A stretch of 64,000 nucleotides of DNA from assembly GCA_040754075.1 (NCBI GenBank), contig JBFMDH010000003.1, positions 140,307-204,306 on the forward strand. The letters are read 5' to 3'. Made by a program: the position numbers and the translations under genes. Under the pieces are notes generated by a model that worked only from the letters and a program-made list of their open reading frames with translations, was not told the DNA's origin and did not search any database. Below, one piece after another: positions 13,581-24,773 of this stretch; position 1 is the stretch's first letter, and each line of letters begins with the position of its first letter. The stretch is from Acidobacteriota bacterium. GTDB taxonomy: Bacteria > Acidobacteriota > Blastocatellia > UBA7656.

Positions 13581-14641
13581 AAGAAGAAGGGGAGACCGGG
13601 AGACCGGGAGGCGGGGAGACGGCAAACTTTCAAACTCCTTTGCAAGAGCCTGTGCAAGCTACTACGCGAGAGCCTCTTCAAACTTCCACACAAAACCGCA
13701 CCCTAAGCGTAGGTCAGGACGGCGCAAGCGGCGCTAAACAAAAATTACCTGAGGGCGCAGTCTACGATGGGCGATTGACACCCGCCGATAAAGTCTTCAT
13801 TGCTTATCTGCTAATCCTTGCCGGTTTAATTTTATTGGCGATTGAACGCATTGAGCATTGGGCAATGTTACTGTTGCTTCATGCGTTGAGCCTGGGCTTT
13901 ATCGTCTTACTGGCAAAAGTAATTGCGCCGAAACTGGGCAATGTCGGGCGATTCATTCGCGGCTGGTATGCCGTACCGTTTATTCCTACGACGTTTAAAG
14001 AGCTTGAATATTTGATTCCGCGCCTGCACCCGCGTGATTTCGACTGGCAACTGGCGGCTATTGATTACCGCGTGTTTGGCGTGCATCCGACCATCTGGCT
14101 CGAACGTTTGCACGTTCCGTTGCTCACGGAAATTTTTCAAATCGTTTATGCGACCTACTATTTTTATCCGGTGATTTTAGGTGTGGTACTCTGGCTGAGA
14201 GGCGATTTTGAGAGATTTCACTTCTGGGTATTTATTCTGATGTGCGGATTTTATTTATCGTATCTGGGCTATATCGCTGTACCGGCAATCGGGCCGCGAT
14301 TTATTCTCGCCGACCAACAGAGCTTGCCGCTTTCGGGCGTCTGGTTATTCGATACGATTCGCGGGACGCTTGATCGAGCCGAGGGCATTACGCGGGATTG
14401 TTTCCCCAGCGGGCATACGGAAATCACATTGCTGGTACTTTTTTATGCGTGGAAATTTCATCGGCGAACCTTTCAATGGATGTGGTTGCCGCTTTTCGCC
14501 ATCATTGTTTCAACGGTTTATTTGCGCTATCACTACGTTGTCGATGTGGTGGCGGGTGTGGTTGCGGCGCTTTTGGTGATTGCCGCCGCCAAACCAATGT
14601 ATCGCTGGCTTGGCGGTGGTGAAATTGAAACGACCGATTAA
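13571..14641 (+). CDS. PAP2 superfamily membrane phosphatase, 356 aa
   Basis: Polytopic membrane protein of the PAP2_3/inositolphosphotransferase type. The conserved motifs are DCFPSGHTE with His282, and RYHYVVDVVAG with His321 and Asp325. About seven membrane segments begin near residue 78. The first 70 residues are polar and probably disordered, and part of them (EGETGRPGGG) is encoded by a run of 8-base repeats at about 13590-13622. The ATG is preceded by GGAAAGAAGG. It probably removes phosphate from, or transfers a head group to, a lipid at the membrane. The overlap with the epimerase gene points to shared lipid or sugar-lipid metabolism. Confidence 0.88.
   Translation: MVVKEEGETGRPGGGETANFQTPLQEPVQATTREPLQTSTQNRTLSVGQDGASGAKQKLPEGAVYDGRLTPADKVFIAYLLILAGLILLAIERIEHWAMLLLLHALSLGFIVLLAKVIAPKLGNVGRFIRGWYAVPFIPTTFKELEYLIPRLHPRDFDWQLAAIDYRVFGVHPTIWLERLHVPLLTEIFQIVYATYYFYPVILGVVLWLRGDFERFHFWVFILMCGFYLSYLGYIAVPAIGPRFILADQQSLPLSGVWLFDTIRGTLDRAEGITRDCFPSGHTEITLLVLFYAWKFHRRTFQWMWLPLFAIIVSTVYLRYHYVVDVVAGVVAALLVIAAAKPMYRWLGGGEIETTD
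13590..13622. repeat. Octamer tandem repeat inside PAP2 gene
   Basis: Four imperfect copies of an 8-base unit close to CGGGAGAC lie in phase at the 5' end of the PAP2 gene. They encode the Gly/Glu/Arg-rich stretch of its N-terminal tail. The composition differs from the rest of the gene. It resembles the intergenic 7-base repeats found elsewhere in the window, except for the unit length. Confidence 0.65.
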
Positions 14642-15027
14642 GATTGGTGATGGTTGCCATTGAGTTGATGGTTCACCACCTTAATCGAAAGGGCGATTAA
14701 ATACCGATTAACCATTTCTTTATCCATTGCCTGAGCCAATTCATCTTCAAGCCTTCTGAGCGCCTGAGAGCGATTTTCAATCAATCGTTGATAAACGTGT
14801 TCTACTAAATCATCGACCATAGCGTTGGTGTTTTTATTGTGTGTTTCTGCTTCTGCCTTCAAATTGAGAGAGGTGATGACGCTGGTATGAATCGTGCGAT
14901 GAAATCGCGACACAAATTCATTCCAGGCAACCGCATCGGGGGGGCGGAGTGTACATCGCTGTATCAACTCCAAAGCGGTCATCCGACCAGCGCCATTTCT
15001 TGTGTAATCGTGATTAGGGTTCTCCAT
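14638..15027 (-). CDS. Sigma-70 region 2-like small protein, 129 aa
   Basis: Helical soluble protein. The stretch AVAWNEFVSRFHRTIHTS followed by DDLVEHVYQRLIENRSQAL resembles region 2 of ECF sigma factors (core binding and -10 recognition). Region 4 is missing, because only about 40 charged residues follow. It is therefore either a sigma-like fragment or a regulator that binds the polymerase core. It follows the CxxC/HTH gene by 36 bases, and its end lies against the end of the convergent PAP2 gene with a 4-base overlap. The assignment rests on pattern only; a profile search of region 2 would settle it. Confidence 0.5.
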   Translation of the reverse strand: MENPNHDYTRNGAGRMTALELIQRCTLRPPDAVAWNEFVSRFHRTIHTSVITSLNLKAEAETHNKNTNAMVDDLVEHVYQRLIENRSQALRRLEDELAQAMDKEMVNRYLIALSIKVVNHQLNGNHHQS

Positions 15028-15063: not shown

Positions 15064-15375
15064 TTATGCGTGTACTAGCGTTAAGTATCTTTGGCCCAAG
15101 TTGGTGGATTTGGCTGCTGCCTTGATTTGAGCAAGCGATTCGGGGCAAACCAGAAGCACCCGTATGGCAGTTTCTGTGAAATGGATTTTCTTGTCATTCA
15201 CCAGCTGGCATAGTTCCAGCGTGCTCAAGCCAAAAATGGCGGTCGCTTCATCCAGTGATAACATCGTGGTGTCTTCGCTGCAAACCGGGCAATTCGGTTT
15301 AATCGCTTTGCTGCGACGGCGTATCACCATCACCTCGTGAGTTTCTACGATGATTTCAGTTCTTGTTGTATCCAC
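15064..15375 (-). CDS. CxxC and helix-turn-helix-like small protein, 103 aa
   Basis: The N-terminal part has a beta-like strand with HEVMVIRRR, then CPVCSEDTTMLSLDEA with one CxxC pair. AIFGLSTLELCQLVNDKKIHF follows and looks like an excisionase/MerR-type helix-turn-helix, then a closing LLVCPESL. Small proteins of this layout seem to recur in acidobacterial genomes near winged-helix regulators; this is recollection, not a search result. It is transcribed away from the PD40 regulator at 15571 and shares its upstream region, which contains direct repeats. A role in DNA binding is inferred. Confidence 0.55.
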   Translation of the reverse strand: MDTTRTEIIVETHEVMVIRRRSKAIKPNCPVCSEDTTMLSLDEATAIFGLSTLELCQLVNDKKIHFTETAIRVLLVCPESLAQIKAAAKSTNLGQRYLTLVHA

Positions 15376-15570: not shown

Positions 15571-17988
15571 ATGAAGCATTTATACAGATTCGGCGATTTT
15601 TATTTAGACCCCCAAAACAAATCTTTATTAAAAGACCAGGCGACGATTCAGCTTGCGCCCAAGACCTTCGACACCCTTTTGGTGCTGGTTGAAAAAAACG
15701 GTAATGTCGTAACCAAAGATGAATTGTTACAGAAAGTCTGGCAGGGCGCTGCCATTGAAGAGAACAATTTAAACCAACAGATTTCCGCTCTGCGGAAAAC
15801 TTTGGGTGAAGCGCCCGATGGCATGAAGTTCATCGAAACGATTCCGAAACGCGGTTACAAATTCGTCGCCCCGGTTGAAGAAGTCGATGACGCCATCATC
15901 ATCGAAAAGCATAAACTCTCGCGCGTGGTCATTGAACATCGAAGCGGCGAGCAGGCGCAGGTTGCAACAGCGGAACTCACAGACCCGGCGACTAAAGTTT
16001 TACCTGAGACTCAGCAAAGCTTTTGGCAAACCCGGCAAAAGGTGATTGCGGCTTTCCTGATACTTCTGATGCTCATCGGCGGCTACACGATTTGGCGATA
16101 CTTCAAACCGGTTGATAGTCCTGAAGCTCAGTGGAGCAACGGCATCATTGAAACTCAGCTTATTTCCGTAAAAGCAAATGTCGGCGGAGGTATTGGTTCA
16201 TGCAAATTTTCACCTGACGGAAAGCTGGTGGCTTATACTGATGAAAGAGATAATTATCTCAACATTCGAGTCACTAAAGTTGGCAGCAACGTTTCAAGAG
16301 CGATTACCGATGAAAAATCGATAAATCAAAGCCCGGTCTGGTCGCCTGATGGTGGGCAGATTGCTTTTTTATCTGACCGGGGCAGTAAACTCGGACTGTG
16401 GGCGGTGGATTCTTTTGGCGGCGCGCCGAAACCTCTCATCACGTTTGATGACTTCGGAGAAAAGGGCAAAGAGGGTAAACCATCACTTATCAAATGGTCA
16501 AAAAACGAAAAAATTTACTATCAATGGGGCAGCAATTTATTTAGCGTCGATTTAAATTCAAAAGCCATTTCGCAAATCACGTCATTTGACCAGACAAAAT
16601 TTTTTACCAGAGATTTCGACATTTCAGCCGACGAAAACTATATCGTGTATTTGGATAAACAGAACAACCAGTCCGATATTTGGCAACTGCCGATGCAGGG
16701 TGGCACTCCGGTTCAACTTACCAGTGATGCAGCAACCGAACGTAGTCCGTTGTGGTATCCTGACGGGAAACACTTGGTTTACAAATCAATCACCGATGCC
16801 ACCAATCAAATCTGTTTATACAATCTCGAAAGCCGAGAGATAACCCAGATTAAACTTGAAAACGACGATGGCGCTTTGAGGGATATATCACCCGATGGTC
16901 AGCAGATACTCTATTCTCAAAGAAAAATTGAATCGGATATATGGAAACTGGATGTAGATAATCCCGAAGAAATTCCGCTGACTGCGGAATCGGATTTGGA
17001 ATCCTGGGCGGACGCTTCACCCGATGGCACAACCATCGCCTATCAAGTGATTAAAGGAACCCAGGGAAGATGGGATTTTAAAGAAAGCCGGTTATTTATT
17101 AAACCGATTGCTTCGGAAAGTCCGGCAACTGAACTCGCGGCGAAAGCCTATGACCCGCAATGGTCACCCGATGGAAAAAGCATCGCATTTCTTCGGGTTG
17201 TCGAGGGGTTCCATGACCTCTGTGTGATTAGCGCGATGGGCGGGCAGGAACGAAATCTGGTAGCGGGCAATGTTCAATATGGTGGTTCAGTTCCTCCGGC
17301 AATGCTTCGCTCACTGCCCAAAGATTATTGCTGGTCGCCCGATAGCAGCAAAATTGCTTATAGCTACCGGCAAGATGAAGTGAACAATATCTGGGTAGTA
17401 GCGGCAGATGGCTCCGACAATCGGAAAATTTCAAACAATCTGGATACAAACCTCGAAGTAAAATGCCCGATGTGGTCGCCTGATGGCAAACGCCTTGCCT
17501 ATATTTCCGGTTACACTCCTCCCCCAAATGAAAATCAACGTTGGAGTTTATGGGTTTCCGATTCGGATAAGCCGGTATTTCAAACGGCTTCCGTTTTACA
17601 ATTACTGGGCTGGGCAGGAGAAAACGAATTCATAGTCGCAAGCGTTGAAAACGAAAGGGGCAATAAAGCCAACCTTACAAAAGTGACATTGTCAAAAATT
17701 TCCCCCGCAGGTGAACAAAAAATTGCCACTCTCGAATCGACCTACCTTGCCAATATTTATTTATCGCCGGATGGTAAGCAGGTAGCATTTGTGGCGGTGC
17801 AAAACGGCAAAGGAAATATTTATCTGATGCCAGTTGGCGGAGGCGAGGTTAAACCATTAACCAACAATCCTGACCCAAGGGTGCTCTTTTCGACACTCAA
17901 CTGGTCAGCCGACAGCAAAACCCTGTTTTACGGGAAAACCGGGTTAATTAACGGATTAACTCTGATTACGAGCAAAGGAGACGAATAG
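15571..17988 (+). CDS. Winged-helix (OmpR/CadC-type) membrane regulator with PD40 propeller, 805 aa
   Basis: Residues 1-105 form a Trans_reg_C winged helix (FGDFYLDPQ, LAPKTFDTLLVLVE, NNLNQQISALRKTLG, TIPKRGYKFVAPV). One membrane segment follows near residues 155-172 (VIAAFLILLMLIGGYTIW). The remaining 620 residues form PD40/TolB-like propeller repeats with SPDG motifs, predicted outside the cytoplasm. This is the CadC/ToxR layout, with a DNA-binding head inside and a sensor propeller outside. Its stop codon directly abuts the ATG of the next small gene, so that gene is almost certainly co-transcribed. Candidate operators lie in its upstream region. The ligand is unknown. Confidence 0.9.
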   Translation: MKHLYRFGDFYLDPQNKSLLKDQATIQLAPKTFDTLLVLVEKNGNVVTKDELLQKVWQGAAIEENNLNQQISALRKTLGEAPDGMKFIETIPKRGYKFVAPVEEVDDAIIIEKHKLSRVVIEHRSGEQAQVATAELTDPATKVLPETQQSFWQTRQKVIAAFLILLMLIGGYTIWRYFKPVDSPEAQWSNGIIETQLISVKANVGGGIGSCKFSPDGKLVAYTDERDNYLNIRVTKVGSNVSRAITDEKSINQSPVWSPDGGQIAFLSDRGSKLGLWAVDSFGGAPKPLITFDDFGEKGKEGKPSLIKWSKNEKIYYQWGSNLFSVDLNSKAISQITSFDQTKFFTRDFDISADENYIVYLDKQNNQSDIWQLPMQGGTPVQLTSDAATERSPLWYPDGKHLVYKSITDATNQICLYNLESREITQIKLENDDGALRDISPDGQQILYSQRKIESDIWKLDVDNPEEIPLTAESDLESWADASPDGTTIAYQVIKGTQGRWDFKESRLFIKPIASESPATELAAKAYDPQWSPDGKSIAFLRVVEGFHDLCVISAMGGQERNLVAGNVQYGGSVPPAMLRSLPKDYCWSPDSSKIAYSYRQDEVNNIWVVAADGSDNRKISNNLDTNLEVKCPMWSPDGKRLAYISGYTPPPNENQRWSLWVSDSDKPVFQTASVLQLLGWAGENEFIVASVENERGNKANLTKVTLSKISPAGEQKIATLESTYLANIYLSPDGKQVAFVAVQNGKGNIYLMPVGGGEVKPLTNNPDPRVLFSTLNWSADSKTLFYGKTGLINGLTLITSKGDE

Positions 17989-18372
17989 ATGAACTCAGAA
18001 AAAGCTTTCACCATCAATGTCCTCAGCAAAAACGCAAAAGCCCACGCCGAAATTGTCGAGCGTGATTTTTATGCGGAAGATTTCAGAACCTTTTTAGTCC
18101 TCAGAGAGGTTCTCGATATTTTTCAGCGACGAATGATTGATTATTATCTGGCGGGCGAAACCGTTGAAGAGCGCAACGCCCGCGCCGCCGAAATCGAAAA
18201 AGGCATCAGCGCCATTCCCAATGAAATTTGGATGATTGACCAACTTCAATGCCATGATGATGGGGATTGTCCCGATGGGCAAAGATGCCTTGATGGGGTT
18301 TGCCAAGCCATGATGCAAGAGCGCGCTAAGGCATTAAAAGCATTTGCACAATCCGGTTCTCTGAAACCGTAA
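17989..18372 (+). CDS. Unknown 127-aa protein with C-x5-CPxGQxC cysteine motif
   Basis: Not recognised. The first 85 residues are charged and helical (EVLDIFQRRMIDYYLAGETV), with no signal peptide or membrane segment. Then comes a compact cysteine cluster, C-HDDGD-CPDGQRCLDGVCQ, at about residues 88-106, and a short basic helix. The same spacing C-x5-CPxGQxCxxGxCQ appears in the next gene (18544-18744), which does have an N-terminal hydrophobic segment. The start ATG touches the stop of the PD40 regulator, so the pair is one unit. It may be a metal-binding or disulfide-knot protein, or a peptide precursor with a long leader. All of these are inference. Confidence 0.8.
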   Translation: MNSEKAFTINVLSKNAKAHAEIVERDFYAEDFRTFLVLREVLDIFQRRMIDYYLAGETVEERNARAAEIEKGISAIPNEIWMIDQLQCHDDGDCPDGQRCLDGVCQAMMQERAKALKAFAQSGSLKP

Positions 18373-18543
18373 TATTGCGATTTCCTCAATCATTTGGTTA
18401 AATTTCGCGGCTCCATAAAAACATTCTTGGTTGAATCAACGCTAAATAGTTTTGGGGTAGCGTTAGCTCTCATGTAGGTTTATGACTTTGGATGCTCCAT
18501 TCGTCATAAATAAATATCAACGCTCAACAATATGGAGGATTAA

Positions 18544-18744
18544 ATGGTAAAAAAACAAACTTTAGTCGTTCTTTTGATTGTGGTAATGGTTGCTGTCGTT
18601 CTTAGCATAGGGGTTGTTACACCTACTTCAAAAGCTGTCCAAAACACATCTCAGGTTGAAAATTCTCAACGTTGCTCTGAAGACAGCCAGTGTCCAACTG
18701 GGCAAAAATGTATCAATGGAACATGTCAGGAAACCGCGAAATAG
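18544..18744 (+). CDS. Small exported or anchored cysteine-motif protein, 66 aa
   Basis: A strong ribosome binding site (GGAGG at about 18536) precedes the ATG. Residues 5-25 form one hydrophobic segment (LVVLLIVVMVAVVLSIGVV), either a signal peptide or a membrane anchor. A Ser/Thr/Gln-rich linker follows, then C-SEDSQ-CPTGQKCINGTCQ. This repeats the motif at the C terminus of the preceding 127-residue protein. The mature part would be a roughly 40-residue peptide with four cysteines, probably two disulfides outside the cytoplasm. Function unknown. Confidence 0.82.
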   Translation: MVKKQTLVVLLIVVMVAVVLSIGVVTPTSKAVQNTSQVENSQRCSEDSQCPTGQKCINGTCQETAK

Positions 18745-22262: not shown

Positions 22263-22397
22263 TATTGCTTCTTCAATCTCCAGTTAAAATTTCGCCTGGC
22301 TCTTCACAACATCCTTGAAACGAAATAGTATCACTTCACTCGGTTTCCAAAAAAGCGTTCAGTGGACAAACGAAATTTCCATCGAAAGGCTTGCGCC

Positions 22398-24773
22398 ATG
22401 AAAAAAACATTGGCTCTCTTGGTCACGTTCCTGTTCGCCATTCAACTGGCATTTTCCAATTCATTCTTAAACCCAACTCAATCAAACGACCTCGAAGCGC
22501 GCGCCCGCGCCGCACTGGCGCAAACTTCGGGGACAATTGAACTCGCGGGGTTGATGAAACCTGTCGAAGTGTTACGCGATGAATGGGGCGTGCCGCACCT
22601 CTACGCCGAGTCGCAGGAAGATTTGTTTTTCGCGCAAGGATTCGTCGCTGCGCAAGACCGCCTGTGGCAAATGGAACTCTGGCGCAGAACCGGCGAAGGG
22701 AGACTGAGCGAAATCCTCGGCGCGGCTTACCTTGAACGCGACAAGTTCGCGCGCTTGTGTCGTTATCGCGGCGATATGCAGAGGGAATGGCAAAGCTATG
22801 CGCCCGACACCAAACGCATCATCGAATCGTTTGTCGGCGGCGTGAATGCTTTCATTGAATTGAGTCGCCATCGTCTGCCGATTGAATTTCAACTGACTGG
22901 CATTCAACCGGAACTATGGACACCGGAAGTTTGTCTCACCAGAATGGCGGGCTACATTATGACGCGCAACGCCTCGAGCGAAGTGTTGCGCGCGCAACTT
23001 GTCAAACTCGTGGGCGCGGAAAAAGCCGCTGAACTTTTAGCTACCGACCCGCAGACCCATATCACCATTCCAGATGGCTTGGATTTGAATGGCATTGATT
23101 CGCGCATCCTCGCTTTAGCCAGTGCCGCAAGCGCGCCGATTTCGTTCGGTAATATCGAAGGCAGCAACAATTGGGTGGTAAGCGGAAAGCTTTCGGCAAC
23201 CGGAAAACCGATTTTAGCCAACGACCCGCATCGCCCGATTTTGACGCCGTCGCTGCGCTACATTTCGCATCTGGTTGCGCCCGGTTGGAATGTTATCGGC
23301 GCGGGCGAACCGACGATTCCAGGCATTGCCGCAGGTCATAACGAGCGCGTCGGTTTCGGCTTTACCATTGTTGGTATTGACCAGCAGGATTTGTATGTCG
23401 AAGAAGTCAATCCGCAAAACCCGAATGAATATCTCTACAAAGGCAAATGGGAAAAGATGCGCGTCGAACGCGAACGCCTCAAAGTAAAGGGCAGCGCGGA
23501 CGTCGAAGCTGAATTCAAATTCACCCGTCACGGCGCAGTGTTATTTGAAGATAAAACTTTGCATCGCGCCTATGCGCTCAAGTGGGTCGGCAGCGAACCG
23601 GGTACGGCAGGTTATCTCGCATCACTATCACTGAATCGCGCCAAAAACTGGAAAGCGTTCTTGAAGGCGCTTGAACGCTGGAAAGTGCCTTCGGAAAACC
23701 TCGTCTACGCAGATGTTGATGGCAACATCGGTTGGGTGGCGGCAGGGCTTGCGCCTGTGAGAAAGAATTGGAATGGACTTTTACCGGTTCCCGGCAAAGA
23801 CGGCAAATATGAATGGCAAGGTTTCTTGCCGGTTTCCGAGCTTCCGCAATCCTATAATCCCGCGAATGGGTTTATCGCCACGGCAAACCACAACATTTTG
23901 CCCGAAGGCTACAAGCACGCCTTGAACTTTGAATTCTCGCCGTCGTTTCGCGCCATTCGTATTAAAGAGGTTTTAGGCGCAGGAAAAAATTTCACCGTTG
24001 AAGATTTCAAACAACTGCAACATGACGAAACCTCATTGGTGGCGCGTGAACTGGTGCCTCTGATGAAAGGTGTAAAGATTAATGATGCGACAACAAGAGA
24101 AGCCGCCGAGATGTTATTGAATTGGAATTTTGTAATGGCAAAAGAATCGCCTGCCGCAGCGATTTTTGCAGTGTGGTTGGACAAACTGCGCCCGAATGTT
24201 TTTAAGTTTGCGGTTTCTGCCGAGACCTGGAAATTGATGGGCGGACGCTTTTCAATTCCGCAAACGATTACTGCGCTCAAAACGGTTGACTCGAAAATTT
24301 TCGGCGCGAATGCTAAAGCCGCAAGAGATGCAGCGATGATTAAAAGCCTTGAAGAAAGTGTCTCTGATTTAACCAAACGTTTCGGCGCAGACAAGAAGAG
24401 TTGGCGCTGGGGCGCGTTGCATATTGCTGAATTCAAACATCAGCTTTCGGGAAAGCTAGCCGGGCAGATTTTCGATTTACCAACGGTTACGCGCGGCGGC
24501 GATGCCAATACGGTTAATGCGACGGGCGGCGGCAATTTCAAACAAAATGCCGGTGCATCTTACCGGCAGATTTTAGATGTGAGCAATTGGGATAACTCGG
24601 TCGCGGTCAATGTTCCCGGTCAATCGGGGCAACCTTTCAGTCCGCATTACGGTGATTTGTTATCGTACTGGGCGGAAGGCAAATATTTCCCGTTGCTATT
24701 CAGCCGCGAAAAAATCGAACAGCACACCAAAGAGCGATTGAAATTGGTGCCCAAAGCCAGACTGCAAAAATAA
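22398..24773 (+). CDS. Penicillin acylase family protein (S45), 791 aa
   Basis: Periplasmic N-terminal nucleophile hydrolase, self-cleaved into alpha and beta chains. The start at 22398 gives Met-Lys-Lys and a signal peptide ending LAFS. The alpha chain has [12 protein letters not shown] and [14 protein letters not shown]. The cleavage and catalytic site is [10 protein letters not shown] with Ser256 as the expected new N terminus. The beta chain has [10 protein letters not shown] and GNIGWVAAG, then the conserved Asn region and C-terminal [14 protein letters not shown]. Members hydrolyse acyl-amides such as beta-lactams or acyl-homoserine lactones; the substrate here is not known. It stands alone. 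Confidence 0.93.

Follow-up and report, generated by a model that had tools for sequence, protein, structure and literature searches.

A small gene for a protein with a short cysteine-rich tail stands directly behind a membrane regulator with a PD40 beta-propeller in the stretch of 64,000 nt analyzed here (the window), and this pairing of a Cys-tailed gene with one propeller subfamily is wider than the window itself. We read regulator and small gene together as a dedicated sensor-partner pair in which the cysteine module would act at the propeller, and we put the probability of this reading at about one half. The features concerned are summarized in Table 1.

Table 1. Features of the regulator, the small ORFs behind it and the divergent pair in front of it (positions in the window)
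Feature	Position	Strand	Basis
Membrane regulator, 805 aa	15571..17988	+	Pfam, AF2, A2 profile
Winged helix of regulator	aa 25-98	+	Pfam Trans_reg_C (PF00486) 4.1e-17
PD40 beta-propeller region of regulator	about aa 207-805; 16189..17985	+	Pfam PD40 1.2e-39
Ribosome-binding site (AAAGGAG) of 127-aa ORF, within regulator gene	17974..17980	+	Read from sequence
127-aa leaderless partner protein	17989..18372	+	ORF; A1-profile homologs in class
Predicted helical hairpin of 127-aa protein, aa 26-54 and 59-83	18064..18237	+	AF2
Four-Cys module of 127-aa protein (C88, C94, C100, C105)	18250..18303	+	Motif; AF2
Ribosome-binding site (GGAGG) of 66-aa ORF	18534..18538	+	Read from sequence
66-aa protein, hydrophobic N terminus (signal or anchor) and Cys module	18544..18744	+	ORF; TIGR04201
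Four-Cys module of 66-aa protein (C44, C50, C56, C61)	18673..18726	+	Motif; TIGR04201
103-aa protein with Cx2C pair, divergent	15064..15375	-	54% identity over 87 aa to L241:6281-6661
129-aa protein, second of divergent pair	14638..15027	-	48% identity over 80 aa to L241:5816-6214

Between its winged helix and its propeller, the regulator has one hydrophobic stretch, where AF2 placed a helix (aa 150-177) with low to middling confidence. The model is of low confidence before aa 208 and, as with that of the 127-aa protein, partly confident overall (mean pLDDT 65 and 66, respectively). The propeller is predicted to be extracytoplasmic, an orientation that we infer. The N-terminal winged helix is of the Trans_reg_C type, the feature taken to mark a CadC-like protein, and the CadC equivalog model NF007540 matched the regulator below its cut-off (68.2 bits, cut-off 400) and in the N-terminal part only. 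In its own genome the regulator is the sole member seen of the propeller subfamily defined by profile A2, scoring 465 bits with the next gene at 70 (150 of 183 candidates scored). In PADLOC, the propeller repeats of the regulator weakly matched PDC-M58B (22.5 bits), the sole match obtained, and no model matched either small ORF; a link to anti-phage defence was dropped.

The two adjacent ORFs behind the regulator, encoding 127 and 66 aa, both carry the motif C-x5-CPxGQxCxxGxCQ, as the first-pass annotation had reported. Its statement that both proteins end in this motif is apt for the 66-aa protein, in which four residues follow, but only loosely so for the 127-aa protein, in which 21 follow. 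The 127-aa ORF does begin immediately after the regulator gene, with its ATG at 17989 and the last base of the regulator's stop codon at 17988, and the N termini are likewise as described, with no signal in the 127-aa protein and a hydrophobic start in the 66-aa protein. The 66-aa ORF starts 171 nt beyond the 127-aa ORF with a ribosome-binding site of its own, the sites of both ORFs being good ones, and no terminator-like site was reported between the two. The AF2 model of the 127-aa protein reaches pLDDT 94-96 at residues 51-70 and is lower elsewhere; within the cysteine module, a small beta hairpin is predicted (98-101/104-107).

Judged by profile matches, the cysteine motif is of a type already known (TIGR04201; DPY/Dickkopf/EB-like). 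The 66-aa protein passes the curated cut-off of 25 bits for TIGR04201 (Myxo_Cys_RPT) with 26.1 bits, and the 127-aa protein, with 17.0 bits, falls below it. Of six TIGR04201 matches at E<=10 in the 7.58-Mb genome, the two best, with 26.9 and 18.4 bits, are the window ORFs; the next (16.3 bits), near the score of the 127-aa ORF, is overlain by a 491-aa ORF and was therefore taken as chance. Pfam matches of the small ORFs to EB, Dickkopf_N, DUF7107, and WAP were all under their curated cut-offs. A phmmer search of the PDB with the 66-aa module gave the Dumpy DPY module 1oig as best match (E 0.022), followed by Dkk4 (E 0.31), and none of the Foldseek matches of the 127-aa model reached E<=0.001, the best local ones being squash trypsin inhibitors and Dkk4 at E 0.4 or more. 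In the alignment with 1oig, the 66-aa module shares the spacing C-x5-C-x5-C-x4-C; the DPY/Dickkopf-like two-disulfide hairpin has disulfides 1-3 and 2-4. Dumpy DPY, the Dickkopf N-terminal domain, EB, WAP, and squash inhibitors belong to animal or plant proteins and none of these matches is significant by itself; the likeness may be convergent. The cysteines of the Myxo_Cys_RPT (TIGR04201) repeats in TraA, a secreted protein, are reported to be likely disulfide-bonded (PMC3325183). TraA has its repeats in a large protein, unlike the single module copy near the end of the small proteins found here, and the MYXO-CTERM model had no match in the NCBIfam scan of the window proteins. Against chance, the conserved linkage is a stronger argument than these motif scores.

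The linkage was followed from the sensor side with profile A2, made from the last 350 aa of 14 linked propellers and applied at E<=1e-40. This gave 77 matches in 50 of 154 genomes of the class, which is Blastocatellia judging by named relatives (at most 13 candidates scored per genome). Six were dropped, five running off contigs (G144:C306, G160:C82, G021:C90, G062, and G081) and one, in G040, being a further stretch of a gene already included. Of the 71 places examined, two with <300 nt downstream (G158:C591 and G157:C253) were set aside, leaving 69. A small ORF with at least three cysteines in its last 75 residues follows the sensor at 61 of the 69 places, 59 found by a regular expression and two (G156 and G023), for which the ORF picker had chosen a wrong frame, read by hand; the places counted include the 14 loci behind A2, which had been picked for having a partner, and the expression, like the partner classes below, was set by eye after the loci had been read. 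Five further places (G072:C4, G060, G153:C58, G090:C18, and G083:C495) have a two-Cys tail behind the sensor, and three (G159:C13, G160:C49, and G158:C457) are without such a gene downstream. The gap between sensor and partner is at most 25 nt in 44 of 59 cases.

As a control, 12 other A2 matches in the window's genome (E<=1e-10), PD40-like by this match, gave two matches to the tail expression, neither of them partner-like by eye; one resembled a 2Fe-2S oxidoreductase subunit and the other a spurious ORF. Among 96 long ORF ends from the window and nine loci, the expression scored seven, and all seven belong to subfamily PD40 genes; the other 89 include one subfamily PD40 gene (L025) whose partner was missed by the ORF picker. 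The DNA pattern for CGD[IV]CIP, taken from BON-type tails, was found at 15 places in 14 genomes when 154 whole genomes were scanned, in every case downstream of a same-strand subfamily PD40 gene and no further from it than about 1.1 kb, and the reversed pattern had no match among those listed. The linkage holds across four families whose propellers are 28-40% identical to that of the window.

Three loci stood out when read. At G160:C49, which lacks a downstream gene, a Cys-tailed small ORF (L242:11711-11959) lies divergent, upstream of the winged-helix/PD40 gene, and the partner gene may here have switched its side of the sensor. The PD40 kinase of Acidobacteria bacterium 28-9 (L197:476-3919) contains a propeller segment of well over 100 aa repeated in identical letters, which is either a recent duplication or an assembly artefact. 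At L272 (G063:C6) the sensor frame has 385 aa only and no kinase in frame, the result of a broken gene or a sequencing error.

Seen from the side of the hairpin protein, the same association was obtained. The 127-aa protein as a single query matched at E<=0.01 in 13 of 162 class genomes; those in G009 and G010 were rejected, and the weak hits L019 and L020 were taken as chance. Profile A1, built from nine members of the 127-aa family found by sequence alone and regardless of PD40, gave 28 matches at E<=0.1 in 25 of 158 class genomes (at most 29 candidates scored per genome). At E<=0.01 there were 20, including the nine that built the profile; 18 follow a PD40 gene, either immediately or with one small gene in between, and two are at contig ends. 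The eight weaker matches comprise two behind PD40 genes (G083, G160:C73), one divergent beside a winged-helix/PD40 gene (G160:C49), and five (G034, G126, G053, G006, and G102; E 0.02-0.1) taken as chance, with no PD40 gene among the neighbours listed. A match in G347, from another class (E 0.0097; at most 11 candidates scored per genome), was also taken as chance; it has an internal stop and is CsoR-like by eye. A pattern scan of named genomes with the 127-aa protein gave 22 pattern matches, none of which was confirmed, and a narrower alignment, A3, found five loci, apparently within genomes already counted. The possibility that the motif is scattered without linkage to PD40 genes was thus checked, and the Cys-tailed small genes proved to be tied to one PD40 subfamily. 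Across 396 genomes of the phylum, 20 had members of the A2 subfamily, and these 20 all belong to the same class (at most five candidates scored per genome), which weakly suggests that the subfamily is absent from the other classes; named relatives of the hairpin type come from Blastocatellia and Acidobacteria MAGs.

To type the output domains, small HMMs were built on five kinase and five winged-helix sequences from these loci; they gave 67 rows, one of them a repeat (G041). The 66 distinct subfamily proteins comprise 58 with a Ser/Thr kinase, six with a winged helix, and two undecided (one truncated, one with a broken frame); two more winged-helix sensors are those of G156 and G160:C11, the N termini of which were used in the winged-helix model. 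The earlier description of a CadC-like regulator next to the Cys genes needs correcting in this respect, as the output type is not constant in the subfamily. By eye, 65 partners were assigned to a leaderless hairpin-like (19), secreted BON-like (28), lipoprotein-like (12), mini two-Cys (4), or short Cys (2) type, and BON was confirmed by Pfam in both partners tested. Some hairpin-type tails carry just three cysteines and five partners just two; in the lipoprotein type, the tail precedes a further low-complexity stretch, so that the module does not form the end of every partner. Pairs of tail proteins in tandem, as in the window, were found in four other genomes, G075, G091, G159, and G158 (loci L129, L132, L051, and L058), in keeping with the proposal of an internal and an external version of one module, but this arrangement does not describe most partners: by a hydrophobicity cut, 40 of 59 have a hydrophobic N terminus and are BON- or lipoprotein-like, the remaining 19 having none. 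Among the 40, G157:C504 is a borderline case that looks like a leaderless protein.

The 71 propellers were placed on a quick tree, in which a branch of SH-aLRT 99 splits 33 rows from 38. The side of 33 holds all 19 hairpin, all four mini, and both short partners together with two BON and six unlabelled ones, and the side of 38 consists of 26 BON and 12 lipoprotein types. Partner class changes 13 times on this tree against a shuffled mean of 37.3, with none of 200 shuffles as low (the six unlabelled forming a sixth class), and eight times if the unlabelled rows are left out; near-copies and shared descent could account for part of this clustering. The window's clade (SH-aLRT 98) has nine rows, five winged-helix and four kinase proteins, and its eight labelled partners are seven of the hairpin type and one short Cys protein. 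Partner type clusters by propeller clade and survives the change of output domain in the window's clade.

The two divergent proteins in front of the regulator had no Pfam match at E<=0.01; the 129-aa protein resembles a sigma region 2 fragment, by eye only. The syntenic locus G001:C139 (L241) retains the divergent pair, a winged-helix/PD40 regulator with a propeller 41% identical to that of the window, and a small Cys gene. Its cystathionine beta-synthase is 88% identical to that of the window, which lies further downstream and on the opposite strand. The partner at this locus has 56 aa and lacks the hairpin domain, keeping the Cys module; it aligns to the 66-aa protein in the module region only (22% over 32 aa, E 3e-4 in a single comparison). 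These identities indicate that sensor and partner diverge far faster than the neighbouring enzyme, and the 56-aa form that the N-terminal part of the partner can change while the tail stays. At G160:C11 the divergent gene gave sigma-70 matches below threshold; behind it come a protein with a weak likeness to zf-HC2, another protein, and a caspase. Right behind the Cys pair of the window lies a convergent CxxCxxCC gene (PF03692; 18857-19237, minus strand), which is probably unrelated.

Beyond the Cys gene, some loci contain further genes, among them tyrosinase-like ones in G001, G156, G158, and G160. At L038, L049, and L048 (G160:C11, G158:C670, and G156:C53) a short tyrosinase-like gene lies directly behind the Cys gene; that of G160 scored 24.1 bits with PF00264 (cut-off 22.6), and the contig of G158 ends before the sensor. 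The tyrosinase of G001:C125 is a different, full one. A copper-chaperone role, considered for the tyrosinase loci, was dropped as a general explanation, the window's genome being without a tyrosinase-like match of the G160 type. Other neighbours were a papain-like cysteine peptidase (PF00112) directly behind the Cys-tailed partner in G153:C136 (L039:1857-3107), a subtilase (PF00082) in a divergent operon beside the sensor of G001:C125 (L022:3001-4143, minus strand) that could be a processing enzyme, and, by reading, an ABC transporter beside G158:C670. The f5 genomes (L023-L026) show a recurring order of kinase-PD40 gene, hairpin-Cys protein, sigma-54 activator with GAF, and penicillin acylase-like gene, GAF and sigma-54 being assigned by Pfam for L026 and the last by reading; a gene resembling the last one, also by reading, lies in the window (22362-24773). 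No modification enzyme, constant protease, or exporter was recognised among the neighbours read.

In the mechanism that we propose, the sensor would cross the membrane once, with its output domain in the cytoplasm (a winged helix here, mostly a Ser/Thr kinase elsewhere) and its PD40 propeller outside, and the partner would be translated directly after it. The conserved element of the partner would be its short C-terminal Cys module, putatively a two-disulfide hairpin in the window type. From the envelope side, this module may serve the propeller as ligand or co-sensor and thereby determine how the output domain is set. The N-terminal part, which varies (leaderless hairpin, BON domain, or lipoprotein), might decide where the module is placed or what is reported. 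In the window, the 127-aa protein would take the role of coupled partner, and the 66-aa protein would provide the module a second time in exported form. The loci themselves show the pairing, its attachment to one propeller subfamily, the exchange of N-terminal parts, and the clustering of partner type described above; binding, topology, disulfides, the signal, and the route of the leaderless forms to the outside are all points that we infer. We favour an action of the module at the propeller because the module alone is constant among the partners, because the pairing tracks the propeller subfamily and persists when the output domain changes, and because most carriers look exported. The leaderless type is the weak point, as the propeller is predicted to be outside and no constant exporter was seen for the 127-aa protein; the signal-bearing 66-aa copy could supply the module there.

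The small genes could instead be targets, the sensor controlling its own operon and the Cys-tailed envelope effectors being autoregulated cargo, which we consider possible, if doubtful. The other genes that follow in some loci (tyrosinase-like, papain-like peptidase, sigma-54 activator, penicillin acylase-like) fit such an operon, as does the G160 tyrosinase-like family, found in three of 58 genomes and always directly behind the Cys gene. However, these further genes vary between the loci read, the Cys-tailed gene being the constant one directly behind the sensor, and most sensors are kinases, which would need an extra step to reach transcription. Chance or neutral hitchhiking of small Cys-rich genes beside PD40 genes has in its favour the three of 69 places where the gene is missing, but is contradicted by the count over the 69 places, the controls with the tail expression, the CGD[IV]CIP scan, and the persistence of the linkage across the four families; we regard it as very improbable.

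Two explanations start from the leaderless forms. If these were RiPP- or bacteriocin-like precursors, a conserved helical leader would be followed by a Cys-rich core that is cut, exported, and sensed or used against neighbours. The conservation of the N-terminal part beside a variable Cys-rich end, the 56-aa form in G001:C139, the GGG ahead of the module in G159, and the subtilase and ABC transporter named above are in line with this. Against it, most partners are hydrophobic at the N terminus and resemble BON proteins or lipoproteins, and the neighbours read included no recognised modification enzyme and no constant protease or exporter; we consider the explanation unlikely. Slightly less probable still is a cytoplasmic metal binder or redox switch, in which the leaderless Cys cluster would act on the output domain or near the membrane. 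It would suit the absence of a signal peptide from the hairpin type and the three-Cys versions, which leave one cysteine unpaired in a pure disulfide module. Against it, proteins whose N termini are of the Sec or lipoprotein type carry the same kind of tail, extracellular disulfide hairpins are what the module resembles (no match being significant), and the partner type is constant across the change of output domain in the window's clade.

The dedicated sensor-partner pair can be set beside several known systems. With one-component regulators of the CadC/ToxR type, the window regulator shares the N-terminal winged helix, one predicted TM stretch, and a C-terminal sensor part; unlike these, it has a PD40 propeller as sensor, a kinase in most relatives, and a small Cys-tailed gene behind it. 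In ToxR-ToxS, CadC-LysP, and other regulators with an accessory protein, a partner acting at the membrane or from the envelope modulates the regulator, whereas here the N-terminal part of the partner is exchangeable and only the Cys module is constant. PknD-type receptor Ser/Thr kinases share the kinase, the TM stretch, and the external propeller with this subfamily. The PknD propeller was described as a possible ligand-binding sensor, and PD40-tethered kinases were noted (PMC2877116); the propeller of the PknD type is a different one, and the part of that article available to us describes no small Cys-tailed partner gene. The first-pass annotation was aware of no described counterpart to the layout; the pairing of sensor and Cys-tailed gene was indeed not found in the open-access literature searched, but the motif type was known. 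Taken singly, all the parts are of known kinds.

These genomes are rich in PD40-like propellers, with up to 272 first-look candidates in a single one, and no signal for such PD40 sensors turned up in the literature searched. A partner gene directly behind one subfamily provides a concrete candidate for a ligand or co-sensor, with dozens of natural variants. We tentatively suggest, as an extension rather unlikely to hold in full, that each sensor, whether its output is a kinase or DNA binding, reads its own cysteine-hairpin ligand from the next gene, with exchangeable carriers and co-divergence of the two; the pairs would then resemble a bacterial analogue of receptors with peptide ligands. Should the module prove to be the ligand, the subfamily would represent a modular bacterial receptor-peptide scheme in which outputs and carriers are exchanged around a fixed contact between propeller and module.
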